IMG/VR virus record: IMGVR_UViG_3300032307_000647
Span: 1 to 49,988 of that record
Length of the DNA: 49,988 nucleotides
Source of the DNA: a virus
Strand: one strand, 5' to 3'
The notes beneath the pieces were generated by a model, which saw only the letters and a list, made by a program, of their open reading frames with translations, ran no database searches and had not been told where the DNA came from. The position numbers and the translations under genes were made by a program. Below, one piece after another: positions 1-49,988 of this stretch. The number at the start of each line of letters is the position of its first letter. Position 1 is the first letter of the stretch.

Positions 1-123
1 ATGACCGGCACCCTGCTCGCGCACACCAAACAAGTGCGCAAGGCCGGCGGCGTCTACAGGCTTACCGGCTCGGACGTTCCCGTTACCTACAGGACGTTCA
101 TGCCTTACAGCGTCGAGGTCAGC
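1..123. repeat. Terminal direct repeat, left copy (contig closure)
   Basis: Bases 1-123 are repeated exactly at 49866-49988. The giant reading frame runs through both copies in the same phase. This is what an assembled circular molecule looks like when the assembler leaves an overlap. It could also be a genuine short terminal redundancy, but its position inside a gene favours assembly overlap of a circular or circularly permuted genome. One copy should be removed when counting length, giving about 49,865 bp. Confidence 0.95.
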
Positions 124-17385: not shown

Positions 17386-17466
17386 TGCCCGGAGAGGGAT
17401 TCGAACCCTCACGCCTTGCGGCGCCAGAACCTAAATCTGGTGTGTCTGCCGTTCCACCATCCGGGC
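17386..17466 (-). tRNA. tRNA-Leu (anticodon TAG)
   Basis: An 81-base class II tRNA with a compact variable arm. The acceptor GCCCGGA pairs perfectly with TCCGGGC and the discriminator base is A. The anticodon stem CCAGA/TCTGG encloses TTTAGGT, giving anticodon TAG, which reads CTA. The T loop is TTCGAAT. CCA is not encoded. It begins five bases after the stop of the adjoining 142-codon gene, so it is probably cut from the same transcript. CTA is common in the late virion genes. Confidence 0.95.
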
Positions 17467-17471
17467 AAGGT

Positions 17472-17900: not shown

Positions 17901-17933
17901 GTGTGGATGATGTGTGGTTGGGTGGAAAGGAAA

Positions 17934-18005
17934 TGGCCCCGCTAGGAATCGAACCTAGATTAAGCGTTTAGGAAACGCCTGTCCTATCCGTTGAACGACG
18001 AGGCC
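17934..18005 (-). tRNA. tRNA-Arg (anticodon CCT)
   Basis: A 72-base cloverleaf. The acceptor GGCCTCG pairs with CGGGGCC through one T-G pair. The anticodon stem GGCGT/ACGCT encloses TTCCTAA, giving anticodon CCT, which reads AGG. The T stem is CTAGG/CCTAG with loop TTCGATT, and the discriminator is A. CCA is not encoded. It lies seven bases downstream of the ERF gene. AGG is a major arginine codon of the giant and internal-virion genes but rare in the early genes around this tRNA. Confidence 0.95.
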
Positions 18006-18012
18006 AGATGGT

Positions 18013-23050: not shown

Positions 23051-23271
23051 CGCTTGTGGCTCGTGGAGCGTTCCTTCCAACCATCAGGCGTGTGTGCCCG
23101 GATGCTGGCGACGTAGCCATCAGGCTTCCAGTCGAGCCTGATGGTCATGTCGGAGTGTTCGTAGGTGATGAAGCCCTCGCCCTGCATGATGTAGGGCGTG
23201 TTCTCGATTGCGTCGACGAGCTTGCTGTCGGCCCACGCGTCGAAGCCGAGCCGGTTGATGTGGTCGAACAT
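23047..23271 (-). CDS. Small early protein of unknown function
   Basis: A 74-residue protein starting MFDHINRLGFDAW at 23271, where TGATG joins it to the exonuclease stop, and ending as ATGA with the next gene. It contains a beta-rich stretch (GEGFITYEHSDMTIRLDW). No family is recognised. The start/stop overlaps on both sides support expression. Confidence 0.55.
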   Translation of the reverse strand: MFDHINRLGFDAWADSKLVDAIENTPYIMQGEGFITYEHSDMTIRLDWKPDGYVASIRAHTPDGWKERSTSHKR

Positions 23272-25011: not shown

Positions 25012-25087
25012 TGGTGGGCCCTGCCGGATTCGAACCGGCAACCAATCCCTTATGAGGGGACTGCTCTGACCATTGAGCTAAGGGCCC
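25012..25087 (-). tRNA. tRNA-Ile2 (anticodon CAT, probable lysidine type)
   Basis: A 76-base cloverleaf with encoded CCA. The acceptor GGGCCCT pairs with AGGGCCC, the anticodon stem is GTCCC/GGGAT around CTCATAA, and the T stem GCCGG/CCGGC with loop TTCGAAT. CAT could mean elongator Met, but the C4-G69 and C5-G68 pairs and the general resemblance to E. coli ileX and the T4 tRNA-Ile2 favour a tRNA modified by TilS to read ATA. ATA codons are frequent in the late genes. Confidence 0.85.
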
Positions 25088-27839: not shown

Positions 27840-28384
27840 TGTCCGTCCCCTCTCAGGAGGACGAAGACCTACTACAGGTCCCCAACCCAGCTGAACAAGC
27901 TCGGGTTCGGGGAGCCATCAAGTCGCTAAGCCAGATGATGTCCGAGAGGGCATCACAGCAACAGGCCGAGATCGCCGCTCAGTACGGACTCGGAGCTGAC
28001 ATGGCGTTCCGTCGACGCGTTACTCTTGAGTCCGGAGCTGACGGCATCGTCGCCGCCGGCGGGCCAAGAAAAGGCGGCTACGTCGGACTCGAGTCCGGTG
28101 CGGCCGGAATCGTCGCCGCTGGCGGAAGAAAAACAGGCGATCATGTGACCTTGGGCATGGGCGCGGCTGGCATCAAGGGCCAGAACCTAGCCTACCTGTC
28201 CCGGAAAAAAAGTGGCGTGGGCGCCCTTGCGGGCGCCAGATACGGCTCTCCCGAGATGTTCCCGGGCAAGTTCCCGTACATAGTGGGCGGCCCTGTGGCG
28301 GTTGGCTTCGGCCGGTCGGCCGGTGGCGCGAACATTAACATTCTTGCCGCAGGTCAAGGCGGCTTCGCCTGCCGCGCGACGTGA
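27839..28384 (+). CDS. Gly/Ala-rich repeat protein of unknown function
   Basis: A 181-residue protein starting MSVPSQEDEDLL at 27839. A charged helical N-terminus is followed by tandem copies of a roughly 20-residue unit around LESGADGIVAAGG and LESGAAGIVAAGG, with a third degenerate copy LGMGAAGI (about residues 62-115), each followed by a basic turn. The remainder is Gly-rich. No family is recognised. It overlaps the large terminase start by GTGA. A packaging-associated or minor virion role is possible from position alone. Confidence 0.55.
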   Translation: MSVPSQEDEDLLQVPNPAEQARVRGAIKSLSQMMSERASQQQAEIAAQYGLGADMAFRRRVTLESGADGIVAAGGPRKGGYVGLESGAAGIVAAGGRKTGDHVTLGMGAAGIKGQNLAYLSRKKSGVGALAGARYGSPEMFPGKFPYIVGGPVAVGFGRSAGGANINILAAGQGGFACRAT

Positions 28385-30021
28385 GCTTCGACCAGATCAA
28401 CATTGGGACTCGTGACGACCCGTTGATGGTCACGAAGCACCCGATAATACATACTCCGACCAAGGAGGATCTGATAGAGCTCGCGCGTGAGCTTGGCCCG
28501 GAGGCCGCGGCAGAAGTGCTCAAGCGCCGCGAGGAGAAGATCAAGGCGGAGGAGCTCGACCCGTATCGTCACGGATTCGAGCCTGACCATTGGCGTGAAG
28601 CCGACGGCCTGCTCATGGCCGGCAACGAGCTTCTCATCATGGGCGGTAACCGAGCCGGCAAGACGGAGTACGCGGCAAAAAGGGTGATGCAACTCCTGTG
28701 CTCCCGCCCGAACTCTAGGGTGTGGTGCCTGCACACCACGTCGCAGACCTCCATCCAGATGCAACAGGCGGTCATCTGGAAATACATGCCGCCGGAGTAC
28801 AAAAACGCCAAGAAGACGAAGGTAACCAACATTCAGTACTCCCAGAAGAATGGATTCACCGACGCGACGTTCGTCCTTCCGAACAGGTCGCAGATCTTCT
28901 TCATGAACTATGGTCAGGAGAAGAAGGTCATCGAAGGTGGCGAGCCTGACCTGATATGGTGCGACGAGCTCGTGCCTCCGGATTGGGTCGAGACGCTACG
29001 CTACCGACTCGTCACGCGATCCGGCAAGATGATCCTGACCTTCACTCCGATCACCGGATACACTCCTGTCGTCAAGGAGTACGTCTCCGGGTGCCGCTTC
29101 AAAAAGACCCTCAAGGCAGACCTTCTACCCGACACGCAAAATGTACCCAACATACCTAAGGGCCATATGCCCTACACGGCTTCGTGTATCAAGGGATCAG
29201 CGAACGTCATCTGGTTTCACTCTATCCTCAATAGCTATTCTCCTTTCGAGCAGATCAAGCTGGCTCTGAGGGGGAGGGGGCCGTACGAGGTAAAGATCCG
29301 CGCGTACGGATGGGCCGAGTCCCTGTCCGGATCCCAGTTCCCGCGATTCGGAGAGCCGAACATAATACCTCCCGAGCGAATACCGAAGGAAGGCACCAAC
29401 TACATGGTCGTCGATCCGGCGGGAGCTAGGAACTGGTTCATGCTGTGGATGCGGGTCGACAAGGACGGCAACAAGTACGTCTACCGAGAATGGCCGGACA
29501 TAAGCATGGGCGAATGGGCCCTCAACGGAGAGAAGCCTGACGGCAAGCCCGGCCCGGCTCAGAGGCAAGGAGCCGGCATGGGTCTCATCGAGACCAAGCA
29601 ACACATACGCTCGCTTGAAGGCGAAGAAGAGATCTTCGAGCGGTACATCGACCCTCGCGCCGGAAACGCGACAGTCATCAACAAGGAGGGCGGAACCACG
29701 CTCATACAGCTCCTAGAGGAAGACCCGGAGCCGATGTGGTTCACGCCTGCCGCCGGCCTCAGGCTCGAGGAGGGCGTAAATATTATCAACGACTGGTTTT
29801 CATACGACCAGAACCAACCGATCAGCGTCGTCAATCAGCCGAAGCTCTACATCTCCGAGGATTGCATCAACACAGCTTGGTGCATCAGGGAGTGGACCGG
29901 CCTAGACGGAGAGAAGGGCGCAAGCAAAGACCCGGTAGACTGCCTTCGTTATCTGGCGGTCATGCAACCCGGCTACGCCGACGACAAGACCTTCAAGGCC
30001 ATCGGAGGGGGATCTTACTGA
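28381..30021 (+). CDS. terL: Terminase large subunit
   Basis: A 546-residue DNA packaging motor. The ATPase domain shows Walker A GGNRAGKT (88-95), Walker B DLIWCDE (190-196) with the catalytic Glu, and a coupling-type TFTP motif (220-223). The nuclease domain begins near YMVVDPAG (341-348, Asp345 a candidate metal ligand), with RYIDPRAG (about 417-424) and a C-terminal KDPVDCLRYL block, as in the RNase H-like nuclease of TerL proteins. The start is GTG, overlapping the previous stop as GTGA. Length is typical. It is followed directly by a small helix-turn-helix gene and the portal. Confidence 0.92.
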   Translation: MSFDQINIGTRDDPLMVTKHPIIHTPTKEDLIELARELGPEAAAEVLKRREEKIKAEELDPYRHGFEPDHWREADGLLMAGNELLIMGGNRAGKTEYAAKRVMQLLCSRPNSRVWCLHTTSQTSIQMQQAVIWKYMPPEYKNAKKTKVTNIQYSQKNGFTDATFVLPNRSQIFFMNYGQEKKVIEGGEPDLIWCDELVPPDWVETLRYRLVTRSGKMILTFTPITGYTPVVKEYVSGCRFKKTLKADLLPDTQNVPNIPKGHMPYTASCIKGSANVIWFHSILNSYSPFEQIKLALRGRGPYEVKIRAYGWAESLSGSQFPRFGEPNIIPPERIPKEGTNYMVVDPAGARNWFMLWMRVDKDGNKYVYREWPDISMGEWALNGEKPDGKPGPAQRQGAGMGLIETKQHIRSLEGEEEIFERYIDPRAGNATVINKEGGTTLIQLLEEDPEPMWFTPAAGLRLEEGVNIINDWFSYDQNQPISVVNQPKLYISEDCINTAWCIREWTGLDGEKGASKDPVDCLRYLAVMQPGYADDKTFKAIGGGSY

Positions 30022-30026: not shown

Positions 30027-30254
30027 ATGATATCCATACCTGCCGGCACTCCTCCGTTGCTTCGACTAGCCGAAGCCCAGAGCATCTTCAACATCAGCAA
30101 GTCCACGCTGTTGCGCATGAGGCGCCGCGGCGACGTCAGGGTCTACAAGACCACGGGCGGACAATTCATGTTCTACCGCGACGACCTGATCGAGCACATT
30201 TCCAAGAACACCAATGGCAAACATCAAGTACAAGGACCATCGCAATCAGCGTGA
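30027..30254 (+). CDS. MerR/excisionase-like helix-turn-helix protein
   Basis: A 75-residue protein starting MISIPAGTPPLLRL at 30027. LAEAQSIFNISKSTLLRMRRRGDVRVYKTTGGQFMF in outline has the helix-turn-helix plus wing of the MerR/excisionase HTH_17 group: ISKSTLLRMRRRG is the recognition helix, and GGQFMFYRDDLIEHI the following strand and helix. It lies between terminase and portal and overlaps the portal start by 41 bases in another frame. It could regulate late genes or take part in packaging. Confidence 0.6.
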   Translation: MISIPAGTPPLLRLAEAQSIFNISKSTLLRMRRRGDVRVYKTTGGQFMFYRDDLIEHISKNTNGKHQVQGPSQSA

Positions 30255-32439
30255 CCAGCTGGCGTACCACCAGCGGGTACCGGATATCCAGTTCCTGCTG
30301 AACGAGTATCAGCGCTCGGCCTACTTCGGCACGATGGTGTCGAAGATGAACTACGCCGATGACATCCGCCTAGCTCGCTGGCCGGGCCAGACCGACGACG
30401 GCAAGAAGCATAGCTACGCCCGGCCCGACGGCGATCCGGCGTTCCCGTTCGAGGGCGCTTCCGATGTCCGCGTCCGCCTAGTCGATAGGCTCATCAGGGA
30501 GCAGAAGGCCCTGCTCATGCACTCGTTCAAGGCGTGCACGCTCAAGGTCGGCGGCACCGAGATCAATGACACCATGTCCGCGGCGTCTGCCACGAACCTG
30601 ATGAGGTGGCTCATCGAGACCAAGATGAAGCTCGAGCTCCACAAGGAGGCCGAGCTCACGGCCGACTACATGCTTCACTACGGATGGTCCATCGTTCAGA
30701 TCGGCTGGGAGCGCGAAGCCGGCAAGCGTATCCAGCCCTTGACCATACAGGAGCTAGCTCAGGCCGCCCAAGCCCAGCAGATGGCCGGAGCCGACGGCAG
30801 GATGGGCGCGCTCGTCGCCGCCCTCTCCGACCCCAAGAAGCAAGACTACGCGGTACAGCTCATGATGGCTTATCTGCCTGATCAGTCCGAGTCACAGGTC
30901 AGGAAGATCGTCAAAGACCTCACGGAGACCGGAGAGGCCAGCGTGGAGCAACCCTTCATCGCCAAGAACCTGCCCGTCGTCACGGCCCTAAAGCCCTACG
31001 ACGAAGTGTGTTTCCCCCCGGAGACCAGCGACCTCCAGAAGGCGCGCGTCATCTTCAGGCGTCAGTATGTCACCGAAGTCGAGCTCAGGTCCATGGCTGA
31101 AGTGGCCGGATGGAAAAGCGACTTCGTGGAAGCCGCATCCCGGACGATGGGCAACCACTATTACTTCAATGACCCGAACCTAGTCCCCACGACCACGATG
31201 TTGAACTCCAACATCCAGCGCGGCGACAACCTAGTTGAGATCGTCTGGGCGTACTACCGCCAGCTCGATAAGGACAACATCCCGGCCATCTACTATACTG
31301 TGTTCTGCCCGCAGGTGGGATCGGAGATGTACGCCATACAGGAGATGCTCAACTACGCCCACAACCAGTACCCGTTCGTCGAGCTACGCATGGAGACCTC
31401 GCGCCGTCAGGTCACGGAGTCGCGCGGCATACCCGAGCTAACCAAGACGGAGCAGGACGAAGTGAAGGCACAGCATGACGCCATCAGGGACAGGACTGCG
31501 TTTGAAGTCCTGCCTCCGGTCAAGGTGGTCAAGCGAATCGGAGCCCTGAACAGGATAGCCCCTGCCCAAGTCCTGCCGGTCACCAACAAGGACGACTACA
31601 CTTGGCTCGAGCCCCCCGCCGGCCGCGCTGAGTACGCATTCCAGATCATCGAGCAGGTCGAGAAGAACCTAGGCAACTACTTCGGCTTCCAAGTCGGAGA
31701 AAAGCCTATCGACCCGGTGAAGATCCAGATGATGAAGCAGCTCCAAATCGACAACTGGCTCATGTTCTGGACTCGTTGCTTCAGCCAGATGTTCACGCTG
31801 TGCCTCCAGTACATGCCTGAAGAGGAGATCGTCCGCATCACGGGTTCCCCTCTGAAGCAGGGCATGTCCGACATCCACACGCAGTACGACCTTAACGTAC
31901 GCTTTGACGTACGCGACGCCGACCCGGAGTTCGTCCGCGAGAAGCTCAAGTCCATCGTCGAGACTGTCGTTCCTCTGGACGTCTCTGGTGTTATCGACCG
32001 CGACAAGCTCGTGAAGCTCGTCATCGAGTCCATCAGCCCGGATGCCGCCCGAGAGCTCGTCATCGACAAGGCCACCGCGTCGCAGAAGCTGTACAAGGAC
32101 GTCACCAGCGACATCGCGCTGATGATGCTCGGCAACGAAGCCCAATACGTCGAGAACGACCCGCAGGCCTCGTCCAAGCTACAGTTCGCTCAGGATATCC
32201 TAGCCAAGAACCCGAAGGCCCAGCAGGCCGCTCAGGGCGACAGGATATTCCAGATCCTCCTCGAGAACTACATGAAGCAACTTCAGTTCTCCGTGGAGCA
32301 GGAAAAGAACAAGCAGATTGGACGCGTCGGCGTCTCGCCGGCCACCGAAAAGATCCAAGAGGAGTTCGGCAAGGCCGCGCAAGAAGGAGCCGCACCGGCC
32401 GCCCAAGCTCCCACCGCAACACCTGATCAACTCGCATGA
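30214..32439 (+). CDS. Portal protein
   Basis: A 741-residue protein, the size of podovirus portals. It follows terminase and precedes scaffold and capsid, the standard order. The N-terminal region has FEGASDVRVRLVDRLIREQKALL in outline, a block common at the start of portal proteins of this type, then long alternating helices and strands. ADYMLHYGWSIVQIGWE resembles the portal wing. The C-terminus is Gln/Ala-rich and low complexity. It contains five cysteines, unlike the internal-virion block downstream. Assigned by order, length and general pattern. Confidence 0.85.
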   Translation: MANIKYKDHRNQRDQLAYHQRVPDIQFLLNEYQRSAYFGTMVSKMNYADDIRLARWPGQTDDGKKHSYARPDGDPAFPFEGASDVRVRLVDRLIREQKALLMHSFKACTLKVGGTEINDTMSAASATNLMRWLIETKMKLELHKEAELTADYMLHYGWSIVQIGWEREAGKRIQPLTIQELAQAAQAQQMAGADGRMGALVAALSDPKKQDYAVQLMMAYLPDQSESQVRKIVKDLTETGEASVEQPFIAKNLPVVTALKPYDEVCFPPETSDLQKARVIFRRQYVTEVELRSMAEVAGWKSDFVEAASRTMGNHYYFNDPNLVPTTTMLNSNIQRGDNLVEIVWAYYRQLDKDNIPAIYYTVFCPQVGSEMYAIQEMLNYAHNQYPFVELRMETSRRQVTESRGIPELTKTEQDEVKAQHDAIRDRTAFEVLPPVKVVKRIGALNRIAPAQVLPVTNKDDYTWLEPPAGRAEYAFQIIEQVEKNLGNYFGFQVGEKPIDPVKIQMMKQLQIDNWLMFWTRCFSQMFTLCLQYMPEEEIVRITGSPLKQGMSDIHTQYDLNVRFDVRDADPEFVREKLKSIVETVVPLDVSGVIDRDKLVKLVIESISPDAARELVIDKATASQKLYKDVTSDIALMMLGNEAQYVENDPQASSKLQFAQDILAKNPKAQQAAQGDRIFQILLENYMKQLQFSVEQEKNKQIGRVGVSPATEKIQEEFGKAAQEGAAPAAQAPTATPDQLA

Positions 32440-33756: not shown

Positions 33757-35094
33757 ATGGCCAACCTCTACGAAAGCCAGTTCCAGAACGAGCGCCCCCT
33801 ACCCGGTGCGCGCGTCGGTATCCGAGAAGAGCTCTCGGACCTCATCCTCAACGTCGACATGAAGGACACGCCCATCACCTCGATGGCCAAGCGTGGTTCC
33901 AAGCCCGGCAACACCACGTTCCGCTGGCAGGTCGACCGCAACCCTGATCCGTCGATCGAACTCGGCATCCTCGATGGTGCTGACGTCGACCCGACCAACC
34001 CCAAGAACAACGACGACTTCAAGCAGTACACGATCGGCTACCGCACGGAAGTGGAGAACAACATCCACATGTTCCGCCGCGCTGTCCACGTCTCTAACTT
34101 GACGCAGGATATCCTGAACATCGCCGGCGTTAAGGACGAACTGTCCCGCCAGCTGTCCAAGGCTACCCTCGACCTGAAGCGCTCCATGGAGCTGACCTTC
34201 ACGTCCGACGTCCTTCCGGCTCGCGATAACGGCACGAACCTCCCTTACAGGACTCGTTGCCTTACCTCGTGGATCAAGAACGACCTCGCTACGGCCACCA
34301 CCAACAAGCAGATCAAGTACGGCATCACCGACTCTAACAAGCAGGTGATCCGCCCGATTGATTCGAACTTCACCACCCCCAGCACGTCCATCATAGGTAC
34401 CGGCCTTACTGTCGATAACCTCTCTGAGAACGACGTTCAGGACGTGATGACCTCGGTCTACGAACAGACCGGCCAGTTCCGCTCCCACGAAGCCGTCGTC
34501 GGCACCTCCCTCAAGAGGCAGTTCACGAACCTCGTGTACACCCAGCGCGCTCCGGCCCTCGACTCCAAGATCACCAACAACCGCGACGCCAACTCGGATA
34601 CCATCAAGGCCTCCGTCGACGTCTTCGAAGGTGATTTCGGTCGTCTGTCCCTGATCCCGTCGCAGTTCCTGCATGCCGGCGTCAACCCGTACACCTACAA
34701 GTTCGTCGGCAACGATGATCTCCCCTCCGGCGTCGCCGATGGCCTTAACTGGGTTGTCTACGATGGCGTTCAGGTCGAGTCCAACATCGTCCCTGTCAAC
34801 GTGACTTGGTCCGGCGACACCCCGACTGTCGACACCACCAGCGCCATCGCTTGCTACGCCACCGAGGCTGAAGCCAAGAAGCACGTCAATCTGCACGCGC
34901 AGAACGCCAAGTGCAAGGGCTTCATCATCCCGTGGGAGTACCTCGAGATCCGCTATGGTGGCAACATCGCGCAGGTCCGAGAGCTCACCGAAAACGGCGG
35001 TGGTCCTCGTCGCATGATGGAAGCCATGGCCGCTCTGGTCGTCCAGAGCCCGCTGTGCTTCGGCATGTTCGACTACAAGGCCAACAACGCCTAA
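33757..35094 (+). CDS. Major capsid protein, SU10/DUF5309-like
   Basis: A 445-residue HK97-fold capsid protein. The start pattern LSDLILNVDMKDTPITSMAKRG, then TTFRWQVDRN and EVENNIHMFRRAVHVS in outline, followed by VKDELSRQLSKATLDLKRSME, matches the SU10/DUF5309 family, where a DxxTP element and a W in the next strand precede the long spine helix. Codon choice differs from the virion genes downstream: Arg is nearly all CGC/CGT (about two AGG among 25) and ATA is almost absent, as expected for a very abundant product. A 504-codon antisense frame across it is an artefact of that bias. Confidence 0.88.
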   Translation: MANLYESQFQNERPLPGARVGIREELSDLILNVDMKDTPITSMAKRGSKPGNTTFRWQVDRNPDPSIELGILDGADVDPTNPKNNDDFKQYTIGYRTEVENNIHMFRRAVHVSNLTQDILNIAGVKDELSRQLSKATLDLKRSMELTFTSDVLPARDNGTNLPYRTRCLTSWIKNDLATATTNKQIKYGITDSNKQVIRPIDSNFTTPSTSIIGTGLTVDNLSENDVQDVMTSVYEQTGQFRSHEAVVGTSLKRQFTNLVYTQRAPALDSKITNNRDANSDTIKASVDVFEGDFGRLSLIPSQFLHAGVNPYTYKFVGNDDLPSGVADGLNWVVYDGVQVESNIVPVNVTWSGDTPTVDTTSAIACYATEAEAKKHVNLHAQNAKCKGFIIPWEYLEIRYGGNIAQVRELTENGGGPRRMMEAMAALVVQSPLCFGMFDYKANNA

Positions 35095-40020: not shown

Positions 40021-41388
40021 ATGGCTCGCGAAATATCAACAGAGGCAGACCTAAGGTTTGAGGGCTTCGCAAGCTACCCTAACAGCGGAGCCTTTGAGCC
40101 CAGCACCATGCTTGAGTACGCATCCAACGTGCGCATCAGTAACGGAGTCATAACCCCGCGTGCAGGATCGTCTAAGGCGTACACGGCCGGCCATAACGTG
40201 ACCTACGCCCTTCCGGCCTACGGAAAGACCGGCGACTCAATCCTGCTATTTGGCGCGAACGAGCGATACACCATCGACGGATCTACCCACGTCTCCCTTC
40301 CGGCGCTGGCGACCAAAAGGCCCGTGCGCGGACAAGGATACGCCGACGCTCTGTGCATGGAATCGATCGACACGGACTTCGTAGCTGGCGGCAATATCGT
40401 CGAGCGGCTGGTCACGGCGAAGAACGATCAGCTCAGCTTCACCTTCTACGGCGGCGTTCAGCCCATACCGGCCGACAACCTGAGCTTGGTTCAATGTACC
40501 TATGACCCGATACAGGCCGTAATCACGGGGCACAACTCCGTGTTCGCGTTCGGAAAACGTAGTATTTACGCGGTCAAAGCAGGCATGGGCTATGTCGCCT
40601 CGCAGAAGAAGCCGGACAGCTTGCATCAGGTTCAGAAGCTGAGCTCGCAGGATGGCGTAGCTGGCCCGAATGCCGTCGCCGAGCTTGGCGGCGTGATCGC
40701 GTTCTTCGACGTCAACCGCGAGCCGGGCATCAAGGTGATCAGCGGCGGCAAGATAAACGAGGGCGGAGAGCCCATGAGCAACACGATCAAGGACATCATC
40801 CAGCAGGTAGACTCAAGCCGCTACGCTGAAATACATGCCGTAGGCTACGCCGGAAGGTTCTACTTCTCACTTCCGTTCCAAAACAAGTGGAAGGTGCTTG
40901 TGCTAAACCCTGCACTCAAGGGTATGTTCGAGTCTCTGGACGAGTATCCGTTCAATCCGAACATACTGATGGTTGCCCGCAAGAACGGCATACCGCGACT
41001 GTGGGCGTTCGACACCCAGCACAGGGACCTGTATCTGCTTGAGGACGGAGTGAATGACTCCGGCGGCGGCCATCCTGTGTCTGAGATCAGGAGCCGTAGC
41101 TACCAATTCAGGACTCTCGCCGACAAGAAGTACGATGGATTCTACGTCCAGCTGGACAACGCCACCGGCGCGGCGGTCCAGATAAAAGCCATCACAGTCA
41201 ATCCGGACTCCGAGCAGATGCTTGATCAGTTCTCCAACGCGACCGGAAGCACGATTAGGCGTGGTTTGATTAACAAACGTGCCATGGCCGTGAAGCTCAA
41301 GGTCATTGTATCGGCCGGCAACCCGCGCATCCTAGCCATGGGGGTTGATGGCTCCATGGTCGGACGCTCCTTCTTCAGCATCTACTAA
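40021..41388 (+). CDS. Nozzle-like tail protein (gp10 / tubular protein B type)
   Basis: A 455-residue beta-rich protein. The opening (EFEGFASYPNSGAFEPSTMLEYASNVRI in outline, with VITPRAGS soon after) is the pattern of podovirus tail nozzle proteins, in which an N-terminal strand-turn leads to a beta-propeller-like body. Repeated strand-turn segments (VFAFGKRSIYAV, RFYFSLPF, KVLVLNP, RLWAFDTQHRDLYLLEDG) support the propeller. It lies downstream of the adaptor and fibre genes, where this protein usually is. Two cysteines are seen. Confidence 0.6.
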   Translation: MAREISTEADLRFEGFASYPNSGAFEPSTMLEYASNVRISNGVITPRAGSSKAYTAGHNVTYALPAYGKTGDSILLFGANERYTIDGSTHVSLPALATKRPVRGQGYADALCMESIDTDFVAGGNIVERLVTAKNDQLSFTFYGGVQPIPADNLSLVQCTYDPIQAVITGHNSVFAFGKRSIYAVKAGMGYVASQKKPDSLHQVQKLSSQDGVAGPNAVAELGGVIAFFDVNREPGIKVISGGKINEGGEPMSNTIKDIIQQVDSSRYAEIHAVGYAGRFYFSLPFQNKWKVLVLNPALKGMFESLDEYPFNPNILMVARKNGIPRLWAFDTQHRDLYLLEDGVNDSGGGHPVSEIRSRSYQFRTLADKKYDGFYVQLDNATGAAVQIKAITVNPDSEQMLDQFSNATGSTIRRGLINKRAMAVKLKVIVSAGNPRILAMGVDGSMVGRSFFSIY

Positions 41389-42203
41389 TGCCAATAACCG
41401 ACACCCCGACCAACGATACGAGCCCGACGTCGTCTTACACGATGCCGGTCGTTCATACCGGGTACGATTACAAGATCTACGGCCGCGATATTGGCGCGGA
41501 GATGTCCACGACGCTGGACGCGTATCTCGCCAACGCCAGCAAGTGGGCCAGCACCAATCTAACGCTGACCGGGTCGCTGGTGTCGCAGACTGTAACCAAC
41601 GCCAACGGCCTTAAGTCGATCTTCACGGGCACCATGGGTAGCTCGGCGATATCGCTGGTGCCCACGACCACCGGACAGTCCCTTAGGCTCGACGAGCTGG
41701 CGCTGGCGGCAAAAGCCCTCCTAGAGTCGCCTGAAATCGACGAGTCCGCCAACGGCCAGATATCCGCAGGCCTCAGCGCGGCAATGGGTGGCGGCCATAA
41801 TTCCGTCACGGCCATCAAGGATAGCATCACCTTCGAGCAGAAGCTACAGGCTAAGCAGATTTCCTTTGGTGCATACGCGCAAGCCCTAGACGCTTACTAC
41901 AAGGTCTACACGGCCACCGCGGCCTCGCTGTCGCAGGTCACGGCTCAGAGCTCCGCTCAGGCCGCGCTTACTATTCCGATCGTCGCTCCGTTCGAGTCTC
42001 AGATGGCTTCGGACGTGCTTGCCGCGTGGAACGATTCTCTCAACACCGGCCAGCTCAGAGATCAGCAGATCAGGCAGACGCACGCCGCAGGAACAGCCCT
42101 CGACGGCTTCAATCCGGGAACCAACTTCTCCGCGTGGAACGCCGAGTACGCGCTCGCCTACTGCGGCATCAAGTCCCAAGCCGCCGCCGCCAAAGCCACC
42201 TAA
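41388..42203 (+). CDS. Virion-region protein of unknown function (271 residues)
   Basis: A 271-residue protein starting MPITDTPTNDTSPTS. A Thr/Ser-rich N-terminus leads to long helices rich in Ala, Gln and Ser (EQKLQAKQISFGAYAQALD, and QVTAQSSAQAALTI). The composition is that of internal virion proteins. One cysteine lies near the C-terminus. It starts with TAATG overlap and ends with the same overlap to the next gene, where the cysteine-free block begins. Confidence 0.55.
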   Translation: MPITDTPTNDTSPTSSYTMPVVHTGYDYKIYGRDIGAEMSTTLDAYLANASKWASTNLTLTGSLVSQTVTNANGLKSIFTGTMGSSAISLVPTTTGQSLRLDELALAAKALLESPEIDESANGQISAGLSAAMGGGHNSVTAIKDSITFEQKLQAKQISFGAYAQALDAYYKVYTATAASLSQVTAQSSAQAALTIPIVAPFESQMASDVLAAWNDSLNTGQLRDQQIRQTHAAGTALDGFNPGTNFSAWNAEYALAYCGIKSQAAAAKAT

Positions 42204-43276
42204 TGCAACAACTACAATCACTATACCGGGGCGACTCCTCCCCTTCCCTGTCCCAGATATTTGGGATGCAGTACCAGCCCCAGCAGGCCATATCGCAAGC
42301 GGCCAACACGGCCGTAGGCTCTGGCATGTCTGCCGGCGCGCAGGTCAAAACGACGGCCATGAACAACGCCACGCAGATGGCGATCGCCGACGCGAACCGG
42401 TTCGAGAATCAGAGGCAGTTTAATCTCACCAACAAGCTGTACAACAGGAACGCATCCGAGAACGAGAGGCACAACCTGTCCACGGAAGCCAACGCTGACA
42501 AGATTACGGCGTGGAATACCGGAGGCCAGCAGGCGGCCGGCGATGAAGAGGCGAAGGGTATCATTAGCGCCCAGATAAACGACCTCACCACTACGCTAAA
42601 TAGCCTAGATAAGAACGATCCAAGCTACCAGAAGAAGGCTCAATACCTCAGGGACAGGATCAAATCCATTCAAGATGGAGGCAATAAGGCCGCACAAACG
42701 CGAGGAGGTCTTAGCGGGTTTGCAAAAGGCCTAGCCAACACCTACGCAAAAAACGGCCTGTTCGAGGGACTAGGCAAAGAGCTTACGCGCGTAGGCGCGC
42801 AGGGGCCCACTCCTTCGGCTAAGCCGGTTGCGAAAACGCCTAGCGAGATAAGCCCGGTTGCTGTCACTTCATGGCCGAGCTCGAATGGAACAGTTATATC
42901 GCTCCCCTCAGGATCCAATATCAACTCGTTTAACCTAACCGGAGGATCCGCGCCGGCCACGCTTAGCGGTAGCGTCTTTAACATGACTGGCACGGGCCAG
43001 ACCAACTTGACTGGCGTGACCACGCTCGGCGGACAGCCCGTATCGGGTCCGCTAACCATAGGGCCGTCTAGCCCGGCTACGACTCCACCGGCGACGACTC
43101 CACCGGCGACGACTCCTCCAGCCGGAACTCCACCGGCCGCAACTTCCGGGAGAACCTTCTTCCCGCTAACCCCATCAGCGCCGACTCCGCTCGCTCCCCC
43201 TGCGGCCGCAAGCGGAACTACGTTCTCGTTCTTCCCAAGACCTGCTGAGTTCAGGCCCACTCCGTCCGGATTGTAA
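42203..43276 (+). CDS. Internal-virion-like protein with Pro/Thr repeats, Cys-free
   Basis: A 357-residue protein starting MQQLQSLYRGDSS at 42203 (TAATG overlap). The N-terminal half is Gln/Ala/Asn-rich helix (QAISQAANTAVGSG, then TQMAIADANRFENQRQF). The C-terminal third is a Ser/Thr/Pro linker with a tandem TTPPA motif (DNA repeats of 15 bases at 43079-43138) and a final Pro-rich tail. No cysteine is present. It resembles podovirus internal proteins that go into the capsid and are ejected, but the family is not recognised. Confidence 0.55.
   Translation: MQQLQSLYRGDSSPSLSQIFGMQYQPQQAISQAANTAVGSGMSAGAQVKTTAMNNATQMAIADANRFENQRQFNLTNKLYNRNASENERHNLSTEANADKITAWNTGGQQAAGDEEAKGIISAQINDLTTTLNSLDKNDPSYQKKAQYLRDRIKSIQDGGNKAAQTRGGLSGFAKGLANTYAKNGLFEGLGKELTRVGAQGPTPSAKPVAKTPSEISPVAVTSWPSSNGTVISLPSGSNINSFNLTGGSAPATLSGSVFNMTGTGQTNLTGVTTLGGQPVSGPLTIGPSSPATTPPATTPPATTPPAGTPPAATSGRTFFPLTPSAPTPLAPPAAASGTTFSFFPRPAEFRPTPSGL
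43079..43138 (+). repeat. 15-bp tandem repeat encoding T-T-P-P-A
   Basis: Four consecutive 15-base units, the first two identical (ACGACTCCACCGGCG) and the next two diverged. They encode a Pro/Thr linker within the 357-residue protein. Copy number could vary between strains by slippage. Confidence 0.7.
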
Positions 43277-44526
43277 TGAAGTTCTTTGGCGCAGACCCAA
43301 TACAAGACCTTACTCCTGATCAGCTTCGGAGTATATCGGCGGGATCCGAGCTTGGAGCCGGCCCTGACGATTTGGCGAGGAAGGAAAGGGCGTCGCGCAG
43401 GCTACAGGTAGAACAGCGCAGGTTTTCTTCGCGCCCTGAAGATTCTTGGAAGCCAATAATAGGCGGTGAGGTAGGAAGGCTTACCGCCGAGGGGCTAATA
43501 AGGACAGACACCGCGGCCGACCTGATAGGAGATGTCAGGGTTGCCAAGGGCAAGGCGCTCCTAGGAAAGCTTGGGCCATGGATAGATGTGGCCGGCAATA
43601 TTTACGGAGCCAACTCGGCCACCGCGGCAGGAGAAAGCCCCTATGGAGACGTTGTCTTTAAGAACGGACAATGGGAGATCGCATCGCCCGAGGGAATAGA
43701 CGCCAACTCTATCGCAACCAATACCATTGAAGGCCTAATAAGCGCGGCTCAATGGACCAAGGTTGGAGCAATCCCGGCCAGCCTGTTTGCCGGAGAACTT
43801 ACCGAATCACAGATACACGAAGCGAACAGGAAGAAGGCCCCTAGGCTTGCCGAGATAGCAAATACCCCGGGATACATGGGATCAAAAGCAGAGGTAGATA
43901 CCCTTCTTCGAAATCTTCACGACCTAAGGATAGCTAGCGCGACTTCAGCTCCTGATGAGCCCGGCAAGATGAGCGGTGTGTTCTGGCAAGGCATAAGGGC
44001 AGACGCCAAGGCAGGCTACGATGCTGAGCTGGCTAACATAGCGGCAGACCTGTCGAGCGGAGATGAAGAAAGGATCAGAAGGGCATCCGAGCAGATGCCT
44101 GTCGTTGCCGAGATGATGGACAGGGTTAATGCTGACTTGGAGGCAGTACAGACAAGCTCTCAAGAGTTCACTTGGCCCATCAAGAGATTCGGAGAGTTTG
44201 TGGCCGATGAGGCTCCGAACATGAACATGACGCACTACTTCAGCGGAGACAGGCTACTTGAAACCCTCTCCGGGAATGTTACTAGCCACGGCCTGCTTGA
44301 TTACCTCAAGCCGTCCGGGAAGAACATGAAGCAATACCAACAGCGCAGGCGCTGGTCTGGACAAGACAAGCCGACCAGAAACCAAGGAAGCGCATTGCTG
44401 ATGGAGCTAAGCCAGAGGGCGCATGAAGCCGCTGGCGGAGATCCTGTCATAGCCCGCGACGCCAAGCAAAAGGCAATTAAGGACAATTTTTCCGTAGCCG
44501 ACCCCGGCTATGGCCTTTATCAATAA
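43276..44526 (+). CDS. Internal-virion-like protein, Cys-free, AGG/ATA/CTA-rich
   Basis: A 416-residue protein starting MKFFGADPIQDL, mostly helical, with Ala- and Gly-rich segments (AGNIYGANSATAAGES; GLISAAQWTKVGAIPASLFAG) that could touch membranes. No cysteine is present. Arginine codons are predominantly AGG, and ATA and CTA are frequent, the opposite of the capsid gene. No family is recognised. It starts at TAATG on the previous stop. By position and composition it is a candidate head-interior or ejected protein. Confidence 0.55.
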   Translation: MKFFGADPIQDLTPDQLRSISAGSELGAGPDDLARKERASRRLQVEQRRFSSRPEDSWKPIIGGEVGRLTAEGLIRTDTAADLIGDVRVAKGKALLGKLGPWIDVAGNIYGANSATAAGESPYGDVVFKNGQWEIASPEGIDANSIATNTIEGLISAAQWTKVGAIPASLFAGELTESQIHEANRKKAPRLAEIANTPGYMGSKAEVDTLLRNLHDLRIASATSAPDEPGKMSGVFWQGIRADAKAGYDAELANIAADLSSGDEERIRRASEQMPVVAEMMDRVNADLEAVQTSSQEFTWPIKRFGEFVADEAPNMNMTHYFSGDRLLETLSGNVTSHGLLDYLKPSGKNMKQYQQRRRWSGQDKPTRNQGSALLMELSQRAHEAAGGDPVIARDAKQKAIKDNFSVADPGYGLYQ

Positions 44527-44546
44527 CTCAATAACCTAATACATAC

Positions 44547-45920
44547 ATGGCACTCCAAGCACCAAAACACAGCCCGGCGGCAGAAAAGGAACTACGCGCC
44601 ACCCTTAAGGCAAAAAAGGAACTCATGGAAAAGCTCCTCCTTGAGAATCCGGCATTCAAGGGCGACGCGCCGATCGTGCTTCAAGGCGGCGGAAGGACCG
44701 AGACTGATGAAAGCGTGATAAGGAACCCCGGAGCAAACGACCCGGGTGGCACCACGACAAAGAAGAGCGTAACCACCAATGCAGGGCAGTCCGTGCACGC
44801 AAACACCGCCGCGCAGGATAAAGTGCGATCGACTTTTGATGACCTGAACACATTCATCACGACCGCCGAAGCCGACTTGGCCGATCCTGCTAGGCTCGCA
44901 AACAGGATACCCATAGGCGAAGAGGAGCTAATTGACGTGCTTGGCTCTGGAGTAAGCAACGCTCCCGCGATGGGCAGGGTAAGGACGTTCACCGACCTAT
45001 TGTCCAAAATGGAGACCGGAAGGCCAGAACAACAGGCCCTAATAAAGCTGATACAGGGATCCAACCCTACCGGAGGATATACCTTCCTTCGCAGTCTCAT
45101 GCCCGGCGCTAGGGAGAATGTAGATCTTCTCGCCGAGATAATGCACGGGATGAACAATAAAAACAGGGCCGCCGGCATGCTCAACTTGGACGAGCTTCAG
45201 GCCCTAAGGACGAACGCCCCGTTGCTAGCTACGCCGAATCAAGTCTCAAACGAGATACGAGCTACGGCTGGAGCCGCAGGGGGAGCCTTGCCTGCCGCGA
45301 ACAAGCTCGCAAACCAAGCCGAGCAGGTGGCGGTAAGTGCTCCTGCCGTTGAGAGGAACATCGCCAACATGGGCGCAGACGCGCTCAATCAAATAGGCAA
45401 AAACAGAAGGACGGCAACCATAGGAAGCGTCCTTACCGGCGCCGCCGCCGGAACGACTGCCGCCATGTGGCCGACAAATGACACCACCAAGTTCAATCAA
45501 AAGGCCCTTAAGGCTCTCCTTGGAACCGCATCCATAGACAAAGAGCTGTACAAGACCGATCCGTCCCAAGCCTTGGAGAATGCCTTTGGCGCGTATGCCG
45601 AGCGAGAGTTTGGAAGGAGCAAGAAGAAGCCTCAGTACAGCAGGTATGAGTCAATAATGCAGAAGTACGCCCAGACGCTTGCTAGGCTTGGCGAAGGCAC
45701 GCTAAAGATAACTGACAATGACCAAGGCCTTACCGACCTCAGGAAGGACATCAGCTCGTTCTACGCCCCTTCCGCCGGGTATGAAGGATACAACGCAGAA
45801 AACCCTATCGCGTTCCCGTATATGTCTGGCAACAAGCCCGGAGTCATAAGCATCGACAAGGACATGAAGAACATCGCTAGGCTAAAGGACGGCGAGGAGT
45901 TTGCCGCGTTCGACAACTAA
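44547..45920 (+). CDS. Internal-virion-like protein, Cys-free
   Basis: A 457-residue protein starting MALQAPKHSPAAEKEL at 44547. It has a helical, charged N-terminus, a Gly/Thr-rich linker, a central helical region (LNLDELQALRTNAPLLATP), and a short Gly/Ala-rich hydrophobic segment (SVLTGAAAGTTAAMWP) that could insert in a membrane. Its C-terminus is Tyr/Pro-rich. No cysteine is seen. The 20-base gap before it has no Shine-Dalgarno sequence. No family is recognised. Confidence 0.55.
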   Translation: MALQAPKHSPAAEKELRATLKAKKELMEKLLLENPAFKGDAPIVLQGGGRTETDESVIRNPGANDPGGTTTKKSVTTNAGQSVHANTAAQDKVRSTFDDLNTFITTAEADLADPARLANRIPIGEEELIDVLGSGVSNAPAMGRVRTFTDLLSKMETGRPEQQALIKLIQGSNPTGGYTFLRSLMPGARENVDLLAEIMHGMNNKNRAAGMLNLDELQALRTNAPLLATPNQVSNEIRATAGAAGGALPAANKLANQAEQVAVSAPAVERNIANMGADALNQIGKNRRTATIGSVLTGAAAGTTAAMWPTNDTTKFNQKALKALLGTASIDKELYKTDPSQALENAFGAYAEREFGRSKKKPQYSRYESIMQKYAQTLARLGEGTLKITDNDQGLTDLRKDISSFYAPSAGYEGYNAENPIAFPYMSGNKPGVISIDKDMKNIARLKDGEEFAAFDN

Positions 45921-46903
45921 TGGTCGACCCGGAAGATCTAGACCCGGAGGTCCTAGCGGCCGCCGTGGAGGCCTATCAGAACGGCCTTGGCGGTGCCGCG
46001 CCTGCCGCCGATCAGAGCTTCACTCCGGCAGTCATGTCGGACATGCAGGTCATCAGGGCCATGGGCAAGGATCCCATGGAGTTGCACAGCCCTGACTTTA
46101 TCCGCGAGGCGACGGCATACAGGGCCGCGGTAGGCAAGCAACAGGCACTACAGGCCAAGGCCAACGCCGCGCAGGTCAAACAACAGGAGAAGCTCAACGA
46201 CCCATCGTTTCAGGCCCAGCAGGTCTATGGCAGGCTTGGCAACGTGGGTGCCGCTAGGACCATAGCCAAGTCTAGGGGGCCCGCCCTGTTTCAATACGGG
46301 GAGGTGGTTGATATGGGTAAGGCCGGAGCGTTTTACATGGCTCCATCCGGCTACCTGATGATCCCTGACGGCAAGGGGGGAATGGTTAAGCAGTCGGCCG
46401 AGGACGTCGTCAAGATGGCCGGCGTCAGCGTCATCCCCTATCTGGGCGGCGACGAGGAAGCCAACGACTTCAGGAACACCACGGCCAAGGCATCGTCCAT
46501 CATAGGCTTCATGGACGCCCTTGAGAATCTATACGAGAAGAACAACAATCTCGTGCCCATGTCTAGCGACTACTACAGGGCACAGCAGATCGAAGAACAG
46601 CTGACGCTGGCAGTTACTCAGCTCCGAAGCGGGTCAAAGAGTGCGGCCGGCATATCCGACATCGAGATGGAAGCCATCAAGAGGACGCTTCCGCGCAGGA
46701 CTGACTTCAGGGAGCTCGACAGAGACTCTAGGATCAAGCTGTCCCAGACCAAGCAACAGCTGTTGGCTCTCATCATGGATAGGGCTCGCCGAAATGGCAT
46801 TGATCTCAGGCAGATAAAGCAGCAAGGTAACGTACCGACGGCTCAACCACAGGCCGGCGGAACAATAACCTCTCCTATATCTGGCCTAGTTCATGGACGC
46901 TGA
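45920..46903 (+). CDS. Internal-virion-like protein, Cys-free, precedes the giant gene
   Basis: A 327-residue protein starting MVDPEDLDPEVLA (TAATG overlap). It has a helical Ala/Gln-rich region (QALQAKANAAQVKQQEKL), a central compact region (GAFYMAPSGYLMIPDGKGG), then a long helical part (QIEEQLTLAVTQLRSGSKS). The C-terminus is Gln/Pro/Gly-rich. No cysteine is seen. The giant gene's ATG lies 11 bases before the stop, so the two may be translationally coupled. Function unknown; presumed ejected or head-interior. Confidence 0.55.
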   Translation: MVDPEDLDPEVLAAAVEAYQNGLGGAAPAADQSFTPAVMSDMQVIRAMGKDPMELHSPDFIREATAYRAAVGKQQALQAKANAAQVKQQEKLNDPSFQAQQVYGRLGNVGAARTIAKSRGPALFQYGEVVDMGKAGAFYMAPSGYLMIPDGKGGMVKQSAEDVVKMAGVSVIPYLGGDEEANDFRNTTAKASSIIGFMDALENLYEKNNNLVPMSSDYYRAQQIEEQLTLAVTQLRSGSKSAAGISDIEMEAIKRTLPRRTDFRELDRDSRIKLSQTKQQLLALIMDRARRNGIDLRQIKQQGNVPTAQPQAGGTITSPISGLVHGR

Positions 46904-49900
46904 TCAACAACCTCAACCGCAAGAAGAAAAGCCTAGCCTAGATGGCCTAGACATACAGAAGACGAGGGAGCTTCTAGCAAGACAGGGAGTGCCGATGATG
47001 ACGCCGGCCCTCCCTGATTTTTATCAGGGTCAGGATCCGGTACAGCAGGAGCCCAACGCTCCGACCGGCATAGCCGCACAGGCCGTCACGGGCAAGGACG
47101 TGTACGAGTACTTCCAAGCGCATCGTAATGGTCCGAACAAAGTAAGGTTTTCGTACGACGAGCAGGGCGCTAAGGCGTTCGGCATGATGGTGGATTACAT
47201 GCGTAGCCGTGACTCGCATCTCTTTGACACCGCATCGATGGCTCTAGGCCAGATGGTCAACGAGATGACGGAGGGCGCAAACGCTATGCCGAACCCGTTC
47301 ACAGATCCGCTTAAGGCTGGAGCTACGGCCGCGGAAGGATTGGCGCGAGGCATAAGGGATATCTACGGAGTTCTGGCTGAGTCCGAAGATCCGACTAGCC
47401 CGTTCTTCAAGTTCAGGAACTATGCGGCAAGGCTTCTAGGCAAGGACGACGGCGACGTCTACTCGCAGATGAGGCAGTTCCATCTTGCTGTCGATTTCAA
47501 CGACGCAACCTACGACAAGACGTCCGTTCTCGCAGACATTCTCCCTGAGGGATGGCGAGACCACTTTAGCAAGTATGTAGATCAGAAGGCCGCGATAGGT
47601 CTTTCCTACATCGCCATGGACCTTCCTGAGTTCATACTCAGCTTGGGTTCGTCCACTCCGGCGACTGCGGCAAGGCTGGCCGCGACCAGCGGATCCAAGG
47701 CGGCTCGCATGGCCAAGGGAGAAAAGATGTACGCCGCTTGGGCCGCGGCTACTACCGATCGAATCGGTAGCTTTGGCCAGCGCGTCATGGGCAACACCAT
47801 GGAAGCCGCGGGCGGAGCTATCAAGGCCCCCTTCAAGGCCATCTATGGAACTAGTCAGGCCGCCGCACAGATGGCCGGAGACTATGCCGGAAACGCCGTT
47901 CGCAACATGGCTACGGCTGAGATCGTCGAAGCTGGCGTTCAGATGACCGGCATGGGCCCGACCAATCCGGCCATCGGTTTCTTCCGTAGCTTCGGCGCGG
48001 AAGCCATGGGCGAGCTCTTGCAGGTCGCTGGTCAGGACATGGTCGACAGGTCGCTCGGCAAGACCATGGTCAAGTCGGACTCGCTCGGCATGACGACGCT
48101 TGAGCGCCTTGCCAGCGGCACGGCCAAGGGCGCGGAGAGCATGTCTAGGGAAGCCCAGATACTCGCGAAGGGCGTGAACGCCGCCGTCGGCTGGGCCCCC
48201 TCCCTGTCTGGCGCGACGCTGAAGACGATGTTCAGGGATGGCATGTTCGGTGCGGCCTTGGGCTACGGCAACTCGACCGAGGAAGGCATGGGTGCCGGCC
48301 TTGCGATGGGTGCGGCATGGGGAGGCATGACCGGAAGCATCCGCCATCTACACTCTTACACGACCTACACGCCGCAGGACGCGCGCGTCGTAGACAACTT
48401 TAGGGACTACGTCATTCCTGCCTTCGGCCGCATAATGGGCCCGACCAGCATGGAGATGGCTAGGCGCTTCCATGACAAGGTAAACAGCTTTGGCGATCTA
48501 AGGACCAGCTCCATCGAGCTCTCCCACCTGTCCACTCTAGTGGCCCACGAGGCCAGCTTGGTTGGAGAAGGCAACGTCATGTTCTACTTCGGCAACAGCC
48601 CGCAGGAGTTCATGAACGTGATGGCCGAGTCTAACATCAAGCCTCAGGACTACGACAAGGTTGTCGGCGCGTTCGCGTCCCTCAGCGAAAGCTCTGCGGC
48701 CGGCATGTTTGAAAAGATCACCCTCAACGACGGATCCGTCAAGAGGCTGATCGCCATCAACTCCGACATGTACAGGCCCACCACGGCCAGACATGAGATA
48801 ACCCACGCCCTGTTCAGGTCTGTCGTCGAGGCCAACTCGGAGATGGACTCCGTCATCAACAAGGAGACGGGCAGGTACATGGGCGATGTGTTTAATCCCT
48901 CCTACGCCAGCAGGATATTCGGAACCTCGAAAGACCTAGGCGTAATGCCGGACGCCGCGTGGCAGTCCCTGATGATCAGCTATGGCGCGGCCCAGATGTG
49001 GACCGAGTTCGGCAAGCCGGACGACCCCAAGATAGTTGGCAAGATAGGCGAGATGGCCAAGGCGGAGTATGGCGAGCTTCTCACTAGGATAAGGGGCCAC
49101 CTCAAGAGGGGCGTGGACATGCAGAACTACGAGGTCGTCAATGACTTCATCCGCGCCACGAACATGGCCGAGGAGGCCTTTGCCTACTACGCCTCCGGCA
49201 CGTCCAACGTTTTCGCCGTAGACAAGTACGTCAAGGATCCGGCAGCCCGCAACCTGCTCAGGGGATGGGCAGAGAACAGGGCTGCTAGAAAGAACAGCCG
49301 CATCCTGTCGTCGCTTGAAGAAGCTGGCGTAGAGATCAGGGCTAAGTTCACCAACGCGGACGGATCCCCTAAGCTGTTCGACGACGCCGGCAACCCGGCC
49401 ATCGAGACCTTTATGTTCGACGACGGCATCGTCGTCAGGACTCCGGGCATGGACTCGTGGGTTGAGTCTGTACTTAAGCAGGCCTACGCGCGAAGCGAAG
49501 TCCTCGTCTCGACGCTAGATCCCTTCAGGCAGGAAGCCTTCGCCAAGGAACACGGCAAGACCCACTTGTTTGCGCCGGTGCGCAACGGGGGTATGAAGCT
49601 CAAGTCTCCGGCCGAGCTGGATGAAATATCCAAGGATCAGGCCGCTAAGATTCTCGACTCCATCAACAAGGTGAACGAGCAGGTCAGGCCCGTCGTCGAG
49701 ACCGGCCCAGATGGATCCAAGAGGATCAAGCTAGAGAACGCCAACGCCGAAACCATTCAGGCCATACAGGCATCCGGAGCGCTCACCCCTCAGGAGTTCA
49801 ATGAGCTCCTAGCCATCGTCAAGGTGGCTGAGAAGAACAGGGCTGGCGACGTCACGTTCAACGTTATGACCGGCACCCTGCTCGCGCACACCAAACAAGT

Positions 49901-49988
49901 GCGCAAGGCCGGCGGCGTCTACAGGCTTACCGGCTCGGACGTTCCCGTTACCTACAGGACGTTCATGCCTTACAGCGTCGAGGTCAGC
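46893..49988 (+). CDS. Giant polyvalent virion protein, 5' part (residues 1-1032, overlapping the left end)
   Basis: Start of the 6,286-codon gene that continues at base 124 of the window; residues 992-1032 are shown at both ends. ATG 46893 (MDADQQPQPQEEK) lies in the 3' end of the preceding gene. From 46893 to 49866 is exactly 991 codons, so the phase is preserved into base 1. The N-terminus is Gln/Pro-rich; Ala/Gly-rich segments (around 245-330 and near 460-490) could insert in or pass membranes. A first zincin motif HEITH sits at 634-638, and EEAFAYY at 760-766 may include a third metal ligand. No cysteine is present. Together with the downstream part this is by far the largest gene of the genome. 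Confidence 0.9.
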   Translation, partial: MDADQQPQPQEEKPSLDGLDIQKTRELLARQGVPMMTPALPDFYQGQDPVQQEPNAPTGIAAQAVTGKDVYEYFQAHRNGPNKVRFSYDEQGAKAFGMMVDYMRSRDSHLFDTASMALGQMVNEMTEGANAMPNPFTDPLKAGATAAEGLARGIRDIYGVLAESEDPTSPFFKFRNYAARLLGKDDGDVYSQMRQFHLAVDFNDATYDKTSVLADILPEGWRDHFSKYVDQKAAIGLSYIAMDLPEFILSLGSSTPATAARLAATSGSKAARMAKGEKMYAAWAAATTDRIGSFGQRVMGNTMEAAGGAIKAPFKAIYGTSQAAAQMAGDYAGNAVRNMATAEIVEAGVQMTGMGPTNPAIGFFRSFGAEAMGELLQVAGQDMVDRSLGKTMVKSDSLGMTTLERLASGTAKGAESMSREAQILAKGVNAAVGWAPSLSGATLKTMFRDGMFGAALGYGNSTEEGMGAGLAMGAAWGGMTGSIRHLHSYTTYTPQDARVVDNFRDYVIPAFGRIMGPTSMEMARRFHDKVNSFGDLRTSSIELSHLSTLVAHEASLVGEGNVMFYFGNSPQEFMNVMAESNIKPQDYDKVVGAFASLSESSAAGMFEKITLNDGSVKRLIAINSDMYRPTTARHEITHALFRSVVEANSEMDSVINKETGRYMGDVFNPSYASRIFGTSKDLGVMPDAAWQSLMISYGAAQMWTEFGKPDDPKIVGKIGEMAKAEYGELLTRIRGHLKRGVDMQNYEVVNDFIRATNMAEEAFAYYASGTSNVFAVDKYVKDPAARNLLRGWAENRAARKNSRILSSLEEAGVEIRAKFTNADGSPKLFDDAGNPAIETFMFDDGIVVRTPGMDSWVESVLKQAYARSEVLVSTLDPFRQEAFAKEHGKTHLFAPVRNGGMKLKSPAELDEISKDQAAKILDSINKVNEQVRPVVETGPDGSKRIKLENANAETIQAIQASGALTPQEFNELLAIVKVAEKNRAGDVTFNVMTGTLLAHTKQVRKAGGVYRLTGSDVPVTYRTFMPYSVEVS
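48792..48806 (+). other. First zinc-metallopeptidase motif (HEITH) of the giant protein
   Basis: These codons encode H-E-I-T-H, residues 634-638, in the context ARHEITHALF. The local helix pattern fits a zincin. MAEEAFAYYASG, about 122 residues later, has an E-E-A-F-x-Y-Y element like the acidic ligand helix of some peptidases, but the spacing is long and this is uncertain. It is a separate domain from the HEIQH domain 1,725 residues further on. Confidence 0.6.
49866..49988. repeat. Terminal direct repeat, right copy (contig closure)
   Basis: Exact copy of bases 1-123. See the left copy for interpretation. Joining the ends here gives one uninterrupted reading frame. Confidence 0.95.

Follow-up and report, generated by a model that had tools for sequence, protein, structure and literature searches.

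We analyzed positions 1 to 49,988 of the IMG/VR virus record IMGVR_UViG_3300032307_000647, i.e., a stretch of 49,988 nucleotides referred to as the window, and found that one gene of 6,286 codons runs across its two ends. The best explanation of the sequence data is that the encoded giant protein belongs to a podovirus ejection apparatus, where it is the largest member, and that it is of the 'polyvalent protein' type. That is, with a probability of about 0.8, the giant would be made late, packed into the capsid and ejected with the DNA, with smaller cysteine-free proteins as channel partners. We infer its packaging, ejection, anchoring and enzymatic activity; directly observed are the intact open reading frame (ORF) under selection, its place in the head-tail operon, a cysteine-free block and an LPD23-type zincin domain. 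Its position in the operon, the complete absence of cysteine and a protease domain in common with other phage giants point to the packed and injected state.

One gene across the contig ends

The following features (amino acid positions, aa, refer to the giant) describe the junction:

46893..49988, + strand: giant gene, N-terminal part (aa 1-1032); mean column identity 61% in 12 aligned relatives
1..15888, + strand: giant gene, continuation (aa 992-6286 from base 1; aa 992-1032 are present at both ends)
49866..49988, unstranded: 123-base end overlap, taken as an assembly cut; identical to 1-123
1..123, unstranded: second copy of the 123-base overlap

Positions 1-123 and 49866-49988 overlap exactly and both copies are in phase, such that the ORF opened at ATG 46893 continues to the TGA at 15886-15888. 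The joined frame encodes a protein of 682.3 kDa and takes up 37.8% of the 49,865-bp circle. At a window GC content of 58%, a chance origin of so long a random frame is out of the question. The original prediction had claimed a single gene split by the contig end, with equal ends in the same phase, 6,286 codons, about 38% of the genome and about 0.67-0.7 MDa, and all of this is borne out by the in-phase overlap and by relatives that hold the whole gene inside single contigs. Neither a stop nor a frameshift interrupts the joined sequence, and the alignment of the relatives is gap-free across the junction (aa 960-1060).

The repeat could also be a physical end, in which case the window would hold two separate genes. 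Such a repeat would be exact, as observed, and phage tf has a terminal repeat of 186 bp. However, the gene is uncut in 16 relatives, the alignment is continuous through the junction, and overlaps of the same 123 bases recur in the relatives G006 and G007, which are cut at quite different places (the overlap of G005 has 99 bases). Contig ends are scattered relative to the giant gene among the 12 contigs of 47.8-51.9 kb, four of which (the window, G011, G012 and G021) are cut inside it; this about matches the expectation for a gene occupying about 38% of the circle. We therefore consider a physical end strongly disfavoured and the most improbable of all readings weighed here. Given the recurring overlap lengths, the 123 bases would stem from the word length used by the assembler and not from a repeat of biological origin. 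Since the gene is uncut in the 16 relatives and under purifying selection from end to end, the window junction is, on this comparison, an assembly cut and not a physical end. In G011, G012 and G021 the giant gene is likewise split by the contig ends, such that linear gene calls there are truncated.

Relatives and selection

Relatives were found among IMG/VR records via the N-terminal part of the giant and the major head protein. The 16 with the whole giant gene in one contig show about 20-56% amino acid identity, and the giant forms a single frame of 6,259-6,459 aa in nine of them and of 5,615-5,831 aa in the seven others, which are more distant (G018 and G020 have the same giant protein sequence). 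For three pairs (G001/G003, G005/G016, G007/G010), dN/dS ranges from 0.04 to 0.25 in each 600-codon block, i.e., the giant is under purifying selection over its whole length. Its most conserved part is the N-terminal stretch of about 1,230 residues, as would be expected if this part docks on conserved partners.

Synonymous divergence rises several-fold (1.1-1.8 vs about 0.1-0.5) at aa ~1200-2400 between G005 and G016 and at aa 1-600 between G001 and G003, which suggests recombination exchanges within the giant gene. Furthermore, a C-terminal extension of about 150-200 aa with a helix-turn-helix-like segment is found in G005-G007, G009, G010 and G016 (giants L035-L040) and not in the window's lineage. 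Five members show HTH_23 Pfam matches (best E 0.0026), which are presumably located in this extension, present in the mid relatives and lacking in the window.

Position in the head-tail operon

The giant is the last gene of a head-tail operon, after terminase, portal, head and head-closure (Hc3)-like genes:

28381..30021, + strand: terminase large subunit (phrog_2, E 3.9e-17; C75C1, 34%)
30214..32439, + strand: portal, by position; 30% identity to C75C1 CDS0032
33757..35094, + strand: major head protein (phrog_1328, E 2.6e-34)
40021..41388, + strand: Hc3-like tail gene, contains cysteine (2-6 in relatives); PHROG 3287/578, C75C1 Hc3 E 1e-9
42203..43276, + strand: putative ejection protein, 357 aa, no cysteine; weak match to tf_54, E 0.007
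43276..44526, + strand: putative ejection protein, 416 aa, no cysteine
44547..45920, + strand: putative ejection protein, 457 aa, no cysteine
45920..46903, + strand: putative ejection protein, 327 aa, no cysteine; syntenic and cysteine-free in 13 relatives

The 327-aa gene overlaps the start of the giant gene by 11 bases. As is typical of podovirus ejection proteins, the block is located behind the head-tail connector genes and its largest member comes last. The genome shows weak kinship to LUZ24/tf-type podoviruses; its best link is with phage C75C1, the nearest annotated relative by terminase, which carries at the same place large genes of 2,769, 375 and 1,343 aa, none of them with cysteine. 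A scan of one genome for each of 84,980 bacterial and archaeal species yielded 490 pattern matches but no relative among them, and there is thus no sign of a prophage.

Elsewhere, the window encodes on the minus strand four tRNA genes (17308-18006 and 25012-25087; Gln(TTG), Leu(TAG), Arg(CCT), Met(CAT)) and an Exonuclease VIII-like protein (23271-24137; phrog_412, E 4.7e-15).

A cysteine-free block

Neither the 6,286 residues of the giant nor the 1,557 residues of the four preceding genes include a cysteine (0/7,843 together), while the other window genes hold 67 in 7,046 residues (0.95%). At this remaining rate of the genome, the probability of observing none is about 3e-33. The giants of the relatives have 1-10 cysteines in 5.6-6.5 thousand residues, and the cysteine-free border at 42203 recurs: the gene directly upstream of the giant shows no cysteine in the aligned part of 13 relatives, the Hc3-like gene 2-6.

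Cysteine is likewise almost entirely absent from established ejection proteins, i.e., N4 gp50, gp51 and gp52 (0 cysteines in 4,294 residues), T7 gp15 and gp16 (0 in 2,065; gp14 has 1) and P22 gp7, gp20 and gp16 (0 in 1,309), while in N4, T7 and P22 it does occur in the replication, terminase and portal genes and in most tail genes. Among polyvalent and comparable phage giants we counted 0/4,667 for BcepIL02 gp70, 0/4,899 for USP_25, 0/2,213 for AF, 0/3,145 for MW202426, 1/3,787 for phiC725A and 2/5,145 for 8P. The absence may reflect passage through the oxidising periplasm: a disulfide bond formed there would presumably prevent threading or refolding, such that cysteine would be excluded from ejected proteins. 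Whether this exclusion is a general mark of phage proteins ejected through the envelope, uniting otherwise unrelated systems (T7, P22, N4, LUZ24-like, Bcep22-like, polyvalent giants), we regard as an even bet. Cysteine is absent as a topic from a review of ejection proteins and from an N4 virion RNA polymerase (vRNAP) study, and no statement on cysteine-free ejection proteins was found in paper searches covering open-licence papers.

Domains of the giant

Domain assignments are based on profile comparisons (hhalign), conserved motifs and AlphaFold2 (AF2) models:

3475..5127, + strand: LPD23-type region and predicted zincin metallopeptidase domain 2 (aa ~2150-2700); hhalign 98.7%, E 3e-16
3847-3873, 4102-4116 and 5002-5004, + strand: domain 2 motifs HPELYAFYP, HEIQH and candidate third ligand E2659, respectively
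48372..49268, + strand: probable zincin domain 1 (aa ~494-792) with HEITH (48792-48806) and E761; AF2 fold match
12418..12570, + strand: HxR...EExQSDxxQ motif (aa 5131-5181); EE.QSD..Q invariant in 19/19 sequences
11260..11412, + strand: W...VSKDEIRQTG...LSRQDLAEFL segment (aa 4745-4795); weak match to the Nostoc phage Nsp-JY18 giant, hhalign 24%

The region of aa 2150-2700 (HPELYAFYP, HEIQH and a later Y...E...T..R) aligns with LPD23-metallopeptidase segments of five phage giants and one faecal contig, while other regions of the giant, used as controls, stay below 7% against LPD23-bearing polyvalent metallopeptidases. Residues H2274, H2359, E2360, Q2362 and H2363 are invariant in 19/19 sequences. 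E2659 is present in all rows and is placed opposite the glutamate of the GEVEARN motif of polyvalent metallopeptidases, a short stretch that is weak when taken alone. HExxH and a downstream glutamate, i.e., the marks of a zincin, are thus both found, and domain 2 is an LPD23-type zincin metallopeptidase domain with predicted activity. In the AF and MW202426 giants, Pfam's LPD23 sits just before the zincin segment they have in common with the window giant.

A second zincin is probable at aa 494-792. E761 is invariant in 19/19 sequences and HExxH is found in 17 of the 18 having the column. The AF2 model of domain 1 (m6b25e492a54f) matches a zincin-like fold with a VIA-align Z of 6.3 over 184 residues (root-mean-square deviation 4.9), where Z values below 8 may reflect a common arrangement only. 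The model of aa 1-1032 has a mean predicted local distance difference test (pLDDT) score of 53 and is usable only at about 495-770, where its best matches are zincin-like with Z about 6.

The motif order of HxR...EExQSDxxQ recurs in proteins of Nostoc phage Nsp-JY18 and MW202675; in the region around it, similarity by profile is weak (24%), and fold searches with the model of aa 4690-5330 (pLDDT 62) gave helical chance matches only. The giants of 8P (L067, aa 4035), USP_25 and phiC725A (L073 and L074 equivalents) carry a second HExxH (HEMTHGQQ/HEMVHGQQ), which by profile is unrelated to either HExxH region of the window giant. An RNase-like PBECR1 match of one member of alignment A2 (aa 1033-3150) is sub-threshold (E 0.22) and too weak to use.

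As the chain has one HExxH domain that is firm and another that is probable, the giant could also be a polyprotein of the infected cell, cleaved by its own zincins into products that stay intracellular, i.e., are neither packaged nor ejected; P1 DdrB is processed before packaging (PMC5512222). We consider this unlikely given the giant's place in the head-tail operon, the annotation of the related 8P giant as a structural protein, and the full exclusion of cysteine, which is common to proven ejection proteins but not to the cytoplasmic genes of the same genome. Less likely still is a tail fibre, adhesin or other giant on the virion's exterior. Exterior virion proteins can be very long and the enzymatic function of the giant is a prediction, but no fibre-type family is matched in the Pfam and PHROG scans and the protease-like domain is common with polyvalent giants.

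Comparison with known systems

For polyvalent proteins, which are known from phages and conjugative elements, injection has been predicted, with metallopeptidases that would process the chain or attack host proteins (Iyer et al. 2017, PMC5512222). The window giant resembles them in being a very large chain of the head-tail operon with a zincin metallopeptidase, an adjoining LPD23-type region and invariant catalytic motifs. Of the domains that define the polyvalent network (metallopeptidase, LPDs), profile-profile comparison recovers the LPD23-metallopeptidase segment. Polyvalent proteins are large chains, often above 2,000 aa, in which several unrelated domains are combined; within the 6,286 aa of the giant we recognise a firm zincin, a second one that is probable, and a motif module. 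It differs in that 5.6-6.5 thousand aa are found in a phage of about 50 kb and in that no ART, helicase, methylase or lysozyme domain was recognised. It is longer than each phage comparator examined (N4 3,500, BcepIL02 4,667, USP_25 4,899, 8P 5,145 aa); a plasmid polyvalent protein of 12,242 aa has been published (PMC5512222).

The closest sequence link leads to the LPD23-zincin giants of the Pseudomonas phages 8P (5,145 aa), USP_25 (4,899), phiC725A (3,787) and AF (2,213) and to that of MW202426 (3,145). All are encoded by late virion genes, carry the LPD23-zincin segment and have 0-2 cysteines, but similarity is confined to this segment, and the AF and MW202426 giants carry, unlike the window giant, recognisable Pfam LPD22/LPD23/LPD38.

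N4 gp50 (3,500 aa, proven to be ejected) is likewise a giant virion-type gene without cysteine and with an HExxH (HELVH 2228), which raises the question whether the giant is an extended N4-type virion RNA polymerase. This appears very unlikely, as no single-subunit RNA polymerase family was found in the Pfam scans (12 members; few regions structure-modelled), and the giant's profile does not match N4 gp50, i.e., there is no detectable sequence homology.

The original prediction had named the Bcep22-type giant as closest precedent. As a functional precedent this is fair, since BcepIL02 gp70 (DarB-like, 4,667 aa) is also a giant, cysteine-free last virion gene, but it is no detectable homologue (profile search E 0.71, no domain reported). 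T7 gp14-16, P22 gp7-20-16 and phage tf gp51-54 are similar as sets of several cysteine-free proteins adjoining tail genes; they differ in that the largest T7 member has 1,318 aa and in that no transglycosylase was found in the window set. The central role as a virion protein that had been proposed for the giant is supported by its operon position, the cysteine-free block and the LPD23-type zincin, though still by inference.

Proposed course of ejection and points against it

If the giant is packed and ejected, the 682-kDa chain would be produced late, as the last product of the head-tail operon, and packed inside the capsid with the four smaller proteins (42203-46903). Ejection would proceed through the short tail, ahead of or together with the DNA. 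The smaller proteins and the strongly conserved N-terminal ~1,200 residues of the giant might build and anchor a trans-envelope channel, through which the remainder would thread into the cytoplasm as a string of domains. There, the two zincin domains and the HxR...EExQSD module may take effect on the host at an early stage or cleave the chain into functional parts.

Several points weigh against this reading. The giant is known from sequence alone, and the predicted functions cover the smaller part of its 6,286 residues. The fold match of zincin 1 is weak, and among the domains found in the giant there is no peptidoglycan hydrolase. The depletion of cysteine is a correlation drawn from a small number of phages, and cysteine is likewise lacking in a few further virion proteins (P22 gp26 and some small ones). 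Finally, the giant itself has no Pfam, PHROG or PDB-sequence match: Pfam scans of the giant and 12 members and a PHROGs scan of the giant gave sub-threshold, chance-like matches only, with no direct match to the Pfam LPD models, and PDB-sequence profile searches gave nothing credible (a Mediator match, E 0.0046, was discarded). A tblastn search of large pieces of the giant against 50,697 phage records gave no match; one distant member, unlike these pieces, led to the 8P and MW202426 matches. The giant family is undescribed in the libraries searched, with no direct family matches, while its general kind, i.e., the polyvalent or ejected giant, is already known.

Implications

With the window, a largely undescribed group of podoviruses of about 48-52 kb comes into view, in which a single, presumably ejected protein of about 0.6-0.7 MDa, close to double the N4 vRNAP, takes up 36-40% of the genome. 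Randomly cut circular contigs will often split such giant genes and thereby hide them from annotation. The N4 vRNAP is proposed to pass a channel of ~35 angstrom as beads on a string (PMC12633501), and the giant sharpens the question of how chains of such size would get through a tail channel about 35 angstrom wide. The most general lead from the analysis is the cysteine signature. A cysteine-free block would be a simple, testable mark of ejected proteins. If it holds true, ejected proteins would be predictable from sequence alone, and the window's family would be the extreme case, in which a single chain reaches up to 6,459 residues and contains hardly any cysteine.

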